Shown here in pieces: positions 33,246 to 35,774 of a stretch of DNA of 35,776 nucleotides. The first letter of the stretch is position 1. Each line of letters opens with the position of its first letter. This stretch comes from a virus. The stretch covers positions 1 to 35,776 of IMG/VR virus record IMGVR_UViG_3300048839_000561; one strand, given 5' to 3'. Made by a program: the position numbers and the translations under genes. Below the pieces are notes generated by a model that ran no database searches, was not told the DNA's origin, and saw only the letters and a list, made by a program, of their open reading frames with translations.

Positions 33246-34136
33246 TTACGGTTCAAGATCTGGCTGAGTGACTAGTTTTAGCTTCGTGCTTACGGTTTGA
33301 GCAGAGGCAGCTTCAGCTGCGTCGAAAAACGCCACGACATCACCAAAAAATTGCTTTGTTGAATCCGGTTTGCGCTTCTCTTTCGCTGTGGAGCGCTGGT
33401 GTTGTGGGCTAGGGGCAATCTCAACAGGGGTCGTCAGGTCAAAGACAGCGCCGCAAGATGCGCGAATGCCCGCCACTAAACAACCATCCACGCCGGTATC
33501 CCGCCCCTTGATGACAATCAGCTCAATCTTGCGGTCGTCGGAACCAAAAACAAGCTCGCTGTGGGTCGCGATAATCACGTCCGAAGCCGATACAGTGGCG
33601 GCAGGTAGATCGCGAATGTGAGGGCGCGGGTCGACGCGTCCGTACTCGGAGGTGTCACGAGCACAGATGACCAGTTTCCCCTCACCAGCAAGCACCTCAA
33701 GGGTATCGGTCTCAATAGGCACATCGAAGATCACGACGTCGGCTTTTGAAACATCCCCAATGGTGTCGAGCGTCCTTGGCGGGACCAGAGTGCGAAAACT
33801 GATGTCTCCGGGATTCCCGGCGAAGGCACGTAGGAACACAGCTATGCGTTGGAGCTCGTCTTCGGTGAACCCATTCATTGTGGCGATGGACTTTTTTTCC
33901 ATCCAAGCGCCAGCGGCAAGGGCATGCAAAATAGATCTCGTCTTGCTAGCCGAGTAAAAGACCACGTTGGCACCCTGCTCGGCAAATTGGAGTGCGAAGT
34001 GCGTTAGAAGCGAGGATTTACACGATCCAACCCTGCCGCATACGGTCACAGCCGAGCCGCTTACGAAGCCGCCTCCAAAAAACTTGTCGAAGTCAGTTAG
34101 GCCAGTTTTAAAAATCTTCATGCTGCTATCTCGCAT
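33246..34136 (-). CDS. RecA/DnaB-like P-loop ATPase with altered Walker A
   Basis: A 296-residue protein of the RecA/DnaB/KaiC fold. GLTDFDKFFGGGFVSGSAVTVCG is the typical lead-in. The P-loop is GRVGSCKSS, with Cys39 where Gly is normal before Lys40. Walker B is VVIFD (D138). There is no N-terminal helicase domain, so it may be a Sak4-like recombinase, a cut-down helicase or a regulatory ATPase. AGGAG lies 8 bases before the ATG. It follows the helicase loader gene by 10 bases, so it belongs to the replication module. Confidence 0.7.
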   Translation of the reverse strand: MRDSSMKIFKTGLTDFDKFFGGGFVSGSAVTVCGRVGSCKSSLLTHFALQFAEQGANVVFYSASKTRSILHALAAGAWMEKKSIATMNGFTEDELQRIAVFLRAFAGNPGDISFRTLVPPRTLDTIGDVSKADVVIFDVPIETDTLEVLAGEGKLVICARDTSEYGRVDPRPHIRDLPAATVSASDVIIATHSELVFGSDDRKIELIVIKGRDTGVDGCLVAGIRASCGAVFDLTTPVEIAPSPQHQRSTAKEKRKPDSTKQFFGDVVAFFDAAEAASAQTVSTKLKLVTQPDLEP

Positions 34137-34146
34137 TTTCCAGCTC

Positions 34147-34887
34147 CTAAAGTTTGCGTCTGTATATTTCGTTTCTAAACGACTCGCCTGGAACGTGGAT
34201 AAACCGCACGAGTTCTTTGAACCTGTCCAGAATTCGGATGTCGTATGTTTCTTTCAAATGTTTTGAGTCAAGGTTCGAAGTAATCATGGTCGGGCGCGCA
34301 TGGCGCAATCTGGCATCGATTACCGCAAGAATTTTCTCCTGCGCCCAGTCGGTAACTTTTTCAGCACCAAAATCGTCAAGCGCCAGTATTCTTGGAGCGG
34401 AAAACATCGAAATAACATCGTGAACCCTACCGCCTGATGTACCTGCGTCACGAAGGACATCGAGGAGCGAAGCGACCGACGTAAACTTCACTGTAAGCTT
34501 GCCATCGCCCCATTTCATGAGCAGGCCCTTTACCAGGTGCGTCTTACCCGTGCCGACTGGTCCGTGAAGCATCAGCCCTTTTTGATCCGGGGTCCAGTCT
34601 TGGACTACTCTTAGCGCAGCGGCCGTCTCTGGCGTTCTTGGGACATAGTGGCAAAGTTGTTTCGAGTAAAACTCCTCTGCCGCGATCCCAGTGCATCCAG
34701 TGGTTAGTAATAGCGCTGGGTTTATGTCGTCATTTAGACATTTTTTGATCGCCTGTTTTGTTGGCTCTAGGTTCTCTTCGGGCGCCCTAAGCCACTTTTC
34801 AAGCATGAGGCTTTTGCCTTCAGCTGGATTTAGCCTATCAAGCGCCTTCAGCGCTTCGTCTAGGGCTGTTCGTGCGTCGACAATCAT
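34147..34887 (-). CDS. DnaC-like helicase loader
   Basis: A 246-residue AAA+ protein that loads the host DnaB helicase. Walker A is GPVGTGKT (109-116), Walker B ILALDDFG (D171, D172), sensor I lies in MITSN (about 201-205), and the arginine-finger region is RILDRFKE (about R222). The N-terminal part carries cysteines (TTGCTGIAAEEFYSKQLCHY) in the place where DnaC-like proteins contact partners. Its ATG overlaps the initiator stop as ATGA. With the initiator it makes an O/P-type replication pair. Confidence 0.88.
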   Translation of the reverse strand: MIVDARTALDEALKALDRLNPAEGKSLMLEKWLRAPEENLEPTKQAIKKCLNDDINPALLLTTGCTGIAAEEFYSKQLCHYVPRTPETAAALRVVQDWTPDQKGLMLHGPVGTGKTHLVKGLLMKWGDGKLTVKFTSVASLLDVLRDAGTSGGRVHDVISMFSAPRILALDDFGAEKVTDWAQEKILAVIDARLRHARPTMITSNLDSKHLKETYDIRILDRFKELVRFIHVPGESFRNEIYRRKL

Positions 34888-35774
34888 GCCCCCACCTCGT
34901 CAAGCACGTCGAACACCGTGCGCTTTTGCTCATCCTGGTACGACTTCGAGGACGACGATGACCCTGATGGCCCGCGCTTCATCCCAGCTACGATGCTGTC
35001 GATTTTTCTGGTACCTCCGGGCTTCGTGATGCGTAGGCCACATGGCGATAGCGCGACTGTGCGCCAAAAGCTGTCGCGTTTCACAAAGTCCAAGACCGCA
35101 CGGATATCTGCCTCCGAGTAGCCGTCAACGCTGCGCAGTATTCTCACTGCGTCCGCCTCACGATCCCGGTTGCACTTTTTCTTCGGGGCTACCGTGAGGG
35201 CGTGCTCATGCCAGGCGTCGGCGATTTCGAAATCAAACTCGCTGGGTTTCTCTTTGGCGGGGCGAGAAGTTTTTGGGTCGGTCGCTGTGGGACCCCCGCA
35301 AGCGTCAGCTTCGGGGTTTATATATTCTCCTGTATTTGTATTTTCTTCTTTAAGAGTAGGAGTAAGAGTAAGAGTAACGTTCGGGTTTGGTTGGTTTTTG
35401 GTTCGGATGTCGTTCGGATGTCGTTCGGATGTCGTTCGGTTTTTCCGAACGGTTCGTTCGGTTTTGGTTCGGATGTCGTTCGGTTTTGGTTCGGATTGGT
35501 TATCCGAATTGGTGGCATTTGCAGGCACAGACGACCCGTATTTTTTCTTGCGAGCATCGGCACTCGCCTTCCCGGCGGCGGAAGCAGCCCCACACCGGGC
35601 GGCGTACCATTCTAGATACTCAGCAGTGCCGCTAACGTAATAGCCATCGTCTCGCCTTTCGACTAAACCGACTGCTTCGGCTTCCGCGAATTCCCCAATA
35701 TCGAATACTTTACTGGGTATAAGCTTCCTGCCTTTCCCCCAATATTTTTGGGCAACCTCCCATAGTTCGATCAT
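34884..35774 (-). CDS. Phage replication initiator (lambda O/DnaD-like), carrying the origin
   Basis: Up to 296 residues. Residues 1-75 look like a winged-helix DNA-binding region (LIPSKVFDIGEFAEAEAVGLV, then VSGTAEYLEWYAARC). Residues about 85-150 are a low-complexity linker of Asn, Arg, Thr and Lys, and its DNA is the iteron array. Residues about 195-290 contain ADIRAVLDFVKRDSFWRTVA and TRKIDSIVAGMKRG, as in phage O-like initiators that bind a helicase loader. The ATG is two bases from the window edge, so the true start may lie beyond it; the N-terminus seems short compared with relatives. ATGA links it to the loader gene. Confidence 0.75.
   Translation of the reverse strand: MIELWEVAQKYWGKGRKLIPSKVFDIGEFAEAEAVGLVERRDDGYYVSGTAEYLEWYAARCGAASAAGKASADARKKKYGSSVPANATNSDNQSEPKPNDIRTKTERTVRKNRTTSERHPNDIRTKNQPNPNVTLTLTPTLKEENTNTGEYINPEADACGGPTATDPKTSRPAKEKPSEFDFEIADAWHEHALTVAPKKKCNRDREADAVRILRSVDGYSEADIRAVLDFVKRDSFWRTVALSPCGLRITKPGGTRKIDSIVAGMKRGPSGSSSSSKSYQDEQKRTVFDVLDEVGA
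35317..35494. other. Predicted replication origin: iteron array and AT-rich unwinding region
   Basis: GTTCGG recurs in an exact 11-bp ladder at 35401, 35412, 35423, 35434, 35456, 35467, 35478 and 35489, with its inverse CCGAAC filling the rung at 35445. The full 11-mer GTTCGGATGTC occurs at 35401, 35412, 35423 and 35467. An outlying copy is at 35379. To the left is an AT-rich stretch (35317-35378) with tandem hexamers GAGTAG-GAGTAA-GAGTAA-GAGTAA (35354-35377). Iterons plus an AT-rich region inside an initiator gene is the lambda plan. Binding by this gene's own product is inferred. Confidence 0.75.

Follow-up and report, generated by a model that had tools for sequence, protein, structure and literature searches.

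A probable replication origin formed by an 11-bp iteron ladder inside the initiator gene of an uncultured phage

Replication genes at the contig end

The window, i.e. the whole stretch of viral DNA that was analyzed, has a length of 35,776 nucleotides. Three genes of a replication module were identified at its end:

34884 to 35774, minus strand: O-like replication initiator, 296 aa readable, N-terminus cut by the contig end (PHROGs phrog_391, 1e-10; similarity to lambda O)
34147 to 34887, minus strand: DnaC-like helicase loader (phrog_50, 5.5e-39; IstB/DnaC-type AAA matches)
33246 to 34136, minus strand: RecA-fold ATPase whose N-terminal half is DnaB/KaiC-like, the third module gene (phrog_19, DnaB-like, 6.4e-13; KaiC, 3.8e-8)

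The last 4 bp of the initiator gene overlap with the loader gene. For the product of the third gene, the phrog_19 match covers residues 6-103 only, and the likeness to DnaB/KaiC is limited to the first hundred residues.

The initiator is composed of a winged-helix-like N-terminal domain, a linker which carries the ladder described below, and a lambda O-like C-terminal domain. The C-terminal domain is 30% identical to lambda O over 69 aa (E 3e-7, pairwise BLASTP). Together with the phrog_391 match, this confirms the original prediction that the ladder is located inside an O-like initiator gene. Outside the C-terminal domain no BLASTP similarity to lambda O was detected, the N-terminus of the window protein being truncated. 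According to the comparison with complete relatives, the start of the N-terminal domain lies beyond the contig end. Since the N-terminus is missing from the contig, the putative DNA-binding domain of the initiator is only partly visible. A circular genome that had been cut within the initiator gene was considered and rejected: the joined contig ends gave no continuous open frame to the homologous start, and a terminal repeat was not found. For the same two reasons, the record looks like a fragment.

For the initiator of a relative (L084), AlphaFold2 predicted a confident small N-terminal domain of the winged-helix type (pLDDT 87). The comparison of this model with the PDB resulted in weak matches with Z under 8, including several winged-helix DNA-binding proteins and the N-terminal domain of DnaD. 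A Foldseek search returned nothing at E below 0.001, and a sequence match to a PDB chain was not found either.

Position and DNA-level constraint of the ladder

In the linker-coding part of the gene, an exact position check located GTTCGG at nine positions (35379, 35401, 35412, 35423, 35434, 35456, 35467, 35478 and 35489). The slot at 35445 holds the inverse core CCGAAC in the 11-bp register and the slot at 35390 the degenerate core GTTGGT. The copy at 35379 is also in register, 22 bp before 35401. All coordinates of the original prediction, including those of CCGAAC and of the extra copy at 35379, proved to be exact. An additional inverted near-copy, CCGAAT at 35504, is off register and had been overlooked. 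The features of the site are:

35379 to 35494, plus strand: 11-bp iteron ladder with 11 slots (nine GTTCGG, one CCGAAC, one GTTGGT); exact positions, far beyond chance, constrained at the DNA level
35433 to 35451: inverted pair CGTTCGG-TTTTT-CCGAACG, opposite half-sites 11 bp apart; hairpin
35490 to 35508: inverted pair TTCGGAT-TGGTT-ATCCGAA, which closes the ladder; perfect 7+5+7, 1 match vs 0.00 expected
35319 to 35378: A+T-rich stretch, candidate DNA unwinding element; 72% A+T vs 46% in the whole gene, next to the ladder towards the part that codes for the C-terminus
35351 to 35377, plus strand: hexamer tract (TAAGAG)4.5 detected by TRF; (TTACTC)n on the coding strand, 81% pyrimidine, directly after the ladder

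The spaced pair GTTCGG-N5-GTTCGG occurs six times in the window, compared to 0.02 expected occurrences, and all six lie within the ladder. In the rest of the window no other 6-mer with a period of 9 to 15 bp reached more than three in-phase copies, and no second GTTCGG ladder was found in the 35.8 kb.

Such a ladder might have no DNA-level function and simply reflect a low-complexity protein linker or recent slippage of repeats. The site does encode an unstructured-looking linker, and one unit occurs three times in a row without change (GTTCGGATGTC x3), as slippage would leave it. Against this stands the relation of the ladder to the codons. Successive copies fall in all three codon phases, which are read as PN, RT and SE in the linker. 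The repeat cycles through the phases because 11 is not a multiple of 3, which would not be the case for a repeat at the protein level.

In addition, the protein sequence was kept fixed and its synonymous codons were re-drawn 20,000 times with the codon usage of the other genes in the window. The re-encoded sequences contained 1.4 cores on average and six at most, so that the observed number of 10 was never attained. CGA accounts for five of the six arginine codons in the ladder, compared to 10% of the arginine codons in the other genes counted. Furthermore, the cores are conserved whereas the spacers are variable, both inside the window and among relatives. The ladder is constrained as DNA. 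This is strong evidence against a neutral repeat in the linker, and a mere by-product of this kind is considered very unlikely. One stretch of DNA is doubly read here, as a protein linker and as a putative binding array.

Ladders in relatives and in other phage initiators

Searches of viral contigs with the single initiator and loader proteins as queries revealed no relatives. With an alignment of the N-terminal domain as query, nine viral contigs were matched; several of these are the same or near-identical contigs that had seeded the alignment and were originally found via the ladder, and the independent ones are L101/L102, L104 and L105. A scan of genome contigs with the N-terminal domain gave no confirmed relative. 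The corresponding linker of L101/L102 and of L104 contains CCGAAC sites spaced by roughly one turn, and that of L105 contains ACCGAAGCCAA every 11 bp. In all of them a short-period pyrimidine tract comes after the ladder, and this order, which is also that of the window, holds for the relatives L097-L105. A search for the ladder in related phages had been proposed, with relatives that have the gene and lack the ladder as counter-evidence. All independent relatives turned out to carry the motif or a close variant in the linker, and no case of the latter kind was found among them. The named relatives Bacillus phage 022DV001, Vibrio phage 199E37-1 and Staphylococcus phage 80alpha have no 11-bp ladder in the initiator gene.

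Next to these homology searches, viral contigs were scanned irrespective of genes for three GTTCGG at 11-bp steps. The pattern was found in 95 contigs with 58 ladder-containing reading frames of useful length. The most common families among the 58 frames (overlapping assignments) were DnaD-like (19 and 12), replisome organizer (7) and O-like (7 and 6). Six of the ten cluster representatives that were checked singly match an initiation family.

The 12-bp control was found in more contigs than the 11-bp pattern, but its matches are in-frame repeats of unrelated proteins, and no initiator family was among those matched most often. Raw match counts were rejected as evidence for this reason. The 13-bp control resulted in 17 contigs and no known family. 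At 10-bp spacing initiators were found again, and the 10-bp and 11-bp steps may be variants of one helical ladder. An arbitrary reversed hexamer, GGCTTG, at 11-bp steps was found in 41 contigs rich in initiators of other phages (DnaD-like in 9 of 24).

A universal GTTCGG core was therefore rejected, since GGCTTG ladders also land in initiators and named phages show other cores. Since initiators are recovered by the GGCTTG and the 10-bp scans, in contrast to the 12- and 13-bp controls, the feature that is shared is a step of about one helical turn, and the core is phage-specific. The concentration of 11- and 10-bp ladders in initiator genes, which is absent from the 12- and 13-bp controls, is a further argument against the ladder as a by-product of the linker.

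Several individual sequences from the scans differ in their details. The 10-bp ladders of GTTCGG lie in initiator linkers (e.g. L298, L312, L297 and L333) and are followed by KEKEKEKTKEK or KDTDKDTDTE tracts. The initiators with GGCTTG ladders (L232, L249, L250, L257, L261 and L263) have the linker SPLQAPCKPLASQ, in several cases followed by EQEQEQEQ, which corresponds to a 6-nt purine-rich tract. A frame of 488 aa (L096:2424-3890) contains at least 16 GTTCGG with steps largely alternating between 11 and 12 bp (23-bp unit) and clusters with no other ladder protein. In L003, L043 and L074, GTTCGG and not CCGAAC is found on the coding strand, in some cases with 5-nt-period tracts (CCCAT)n or (CCGAC)n; judging from these same-strand ladders, the core can have either orientation with respect to the tract.

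The sequences flanking the ladder were compared for 25 de-duplicated initiators from ladder-bearing clusters. The purine/pyrimidine asymmetry was 0.154 in the 3′ flank vs 0.072 in the 5′ flank (P=0.005), and the A+T content was likewise higher in the 3′ flank (P=0.006). This significance appeared only after the later restriction to initiator clusters, whereas the test across all 25 clusters, with non-initiator frames included, was not significant. The flank asymmetry is therefore regarded as secondary evidence. A comparison of the tract with the DnaA-trio was dropped, since the strand on which the tract lies with respect to the core varies among phage groups.

For a broader view, 20 named phage initiator genes were collected on the basis of protein similarity or name, independent of a ladder, and each was compared to 40 codon shuffles. 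In eight of the 20, the strongest non-codon period is 11 or 22 bp and lies above all shuffles (Pony, LmoS_C996, BH1, EH-TP1, pCB2047-A, Vibrio 1.276, F89 g1 and HS2), in a panel which is not a random sample, six of these eight coming from searches seeded by ladder-bearing initiators (L016 and L010). In Vibrio 1.247 the period is 22. For lambda and P22, whose annotated origins lie within the gene, the period is 23. TP901-1, 80alpha, A118, 022DV001 and others differ from this pattern. A helical-turn ladder is common in phage initiators, neither universal nor obligatory.

Two database entries from this comparison should be mentioned. A gene of Listeria phage vB_LmoS_P9 (MZ361825.1, 10204-11109) is annotated as "tail tape-measure protein" and shares 41% identity over 97% with a phage initiator; the annotation is a probable misannotation. 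For the related phage vB_LmoS_C996, the listed host is Hydrogenophilus.

The ladder as a probable phage replication origin

In lambda, SPP1 and lactococcal phages the initiator has been reported to bind repeats in its own gene, and these regions to function as ori (PMC7466680, PMC6316719, PMC8965321). The window shows the arrangement of such origins, with an array of regular iterons in the initiator gene, an adjacent A+T-rich region and an adjoining loader gene, and the element very probably belongs to this known class of initiator-gene-embedded phage origins (lambda/SPP1/Tuc2009).

The ladder had been described as probably the phage origin. This agrees in silico with the O-like initiator, the DnaC-like loader, the constraint at the DNA level, the A+T-rich neighbour and the presence of the motif at the corresponding place in relatives that were identified by protein only. 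The ladder is, with high probability, the initiator-binding part of the phage replication origin, situated inside the initiator gene, where the A+T tract would be opened and the helicase loaded. A probable origin could thereby be located in an uncultured phage without a close relative in the collections searched. The GC skew, which had been proposed as a check, shows no informative switch, since the contig ends within the initiator gene, and is neither support nor contradiction.

By analogy to lambda, SPP1 and the lactococcal phages, the following course of initiation can be proposed. The winged-helix-like N-terminal domain would bind one GTTCGG half-site per helical turn. Several initiator molecules would thereby be aligned on one face of the DNA across about 116 bp, presumably in a cooperative manner, and subunits bound to the two inverted half-sites would face the other way. 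Once assembled, the complex might strain and open the A+T-rich (TAAGAG)n tract at 35319-35378, for which a role as DNA unwinding element, as in the lambda and SPP1 origins, is plausible. Finally, the C-terminal O-like domain and the DnaC-like loader would bring the replicative helicase onto the opened strands.

Plasmid iteron arrays often double in autoregulation and copy control. Accordingly, the ladder could instead be an operator for replication-gene expression or copy number, bound by the initiator or a repressor, with replication starting elsewhere. The N-terminus and the upstream region lie outside the contig, and a second array is possible there. On the other hand, the ladder is located deep in the coding region and not at a promoter, it adjoins an A+T-rich tract, and it is the only GTTCGG ladder of the window. 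In addition, the initiators of Tuc2009 and TP901-1 bind repeat-rich regions in their own genes, and these direct repeats, found in the same place, were reported to serve as ori (PMC8965321). An operator in place of an origin is thus regarded as very improbable.

The array could also be recognised by host DnaA or by another host protein instead of the phage initiator. Phages can use host initiators, and this precedent is the point in favour, as no finding in the window favours host recognition. Only three DnaA boxes (TTWTNCACA) were found in the whole window, a number within chance, and all of them are far from the ladder, which does not correspond to a DnaA-type origin. Moreover, different phages have different units with the same period, which would be expected of initiators that each recognise their own array. 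Recognition by a host protein is therefore extremely unlikely.

For the origin inside the initiator gene, Tuc2009 is the nearest validated precedent with 11-bp direct repeats. Like the window, it has direct repeats inside the initiator gene, here called rep, CAACC being readable in its sequence at exact 11-bp steps (3938, 3949, 3960 and 3971 of L273), and a short-period tract after the repeats, which is a purine tract in Tuc2009. The period of this tract is stronger than the 11-bp period of the four CAACC copies. The two differ in the core and in the DnaD-like annotation of the Tuc2009 initiator, and the window has more copies as well as two inverted ones. TP901-1 differs from the window by a period of 15 bp.

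The lambda ori resembles the window in the central position of its iterons within the initiator gene, an A-rich tract on the 3′ side and a homologous C-terminal domain. In lambda, each of the four annotated 18-bp iterons is a pair of inverted hexamers with an 11-bp step, which gives eight half-sites in steps of 11, 9, 11, 13, 11, 12 and 11 bp on alternating strands. The alternation creates four 18-bp palindromes, whereas nearly all half-sites of the window point in one direction. Inverted 18-bp repeats about 20-23 bp apart, as in the lambda ori, were not found in the window, which has mostly direct 11-bp units and two inverted pairs. In both of these pairs (35433-35451 and 35490-35508), arm, spacer and arm are arranged as in a lambda iteron. 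The loader of lambda is lambda P, that of the window is DnaC-like.

The original prediction had contrasted the ladder with the lambda iterons by its short unit and its single inverted copy. The contrast lies mainly in the orientation and less in the unit length, the lambda half-sites being 9-13 bp apart, and a second inverted copy is present at 35504. The lambda iterons and the direct-repeat ladders may share one half-site geometry.

From these comparisons a wider regularity can be formulated, to which we give an even chance of being correct. One half-site per helical turn (10-11 bp), with a strand-asymmetric A+T-rich short-period tract behind it, would be a common grammar of in-gene phage origins across otherwise unrelated initiator families, in which the core changes and the period is kept. 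The lambda palindromes would be the alternating-strand version of this grammar. If this is true, the origins of many uncultured phages could be read from a non-codon period of 10-11 bp inside the initiator gene, and the present data suggest such a period as a practical sequence signature for phage origins. No description of an 11-bp phage iteron ladder or of its wider regularity was found in the literature searched, in which primary phage-replication papers were thinly covered.

Further known systems show parts of the same arrangement. The initiator gene of Bacillus phage SPP1, gene 38, contains oriL with direct repeats and an A+T-rich unwinding element (PMC6316719). As differences from the window, SPP1 has oriR as a further origin and a loader of another kind, and Bacillus phage 022DV001, which has an annotation for an SPP1-type Gp40 helicase loader, lacks the 11-bp ladder. 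In Staphylococcus phage 80alpha, a putative origin is annotated inside the gp20 initiator gene with an adjoining DnaC-like loader, as in the window, but the periodicity is 15 bp.
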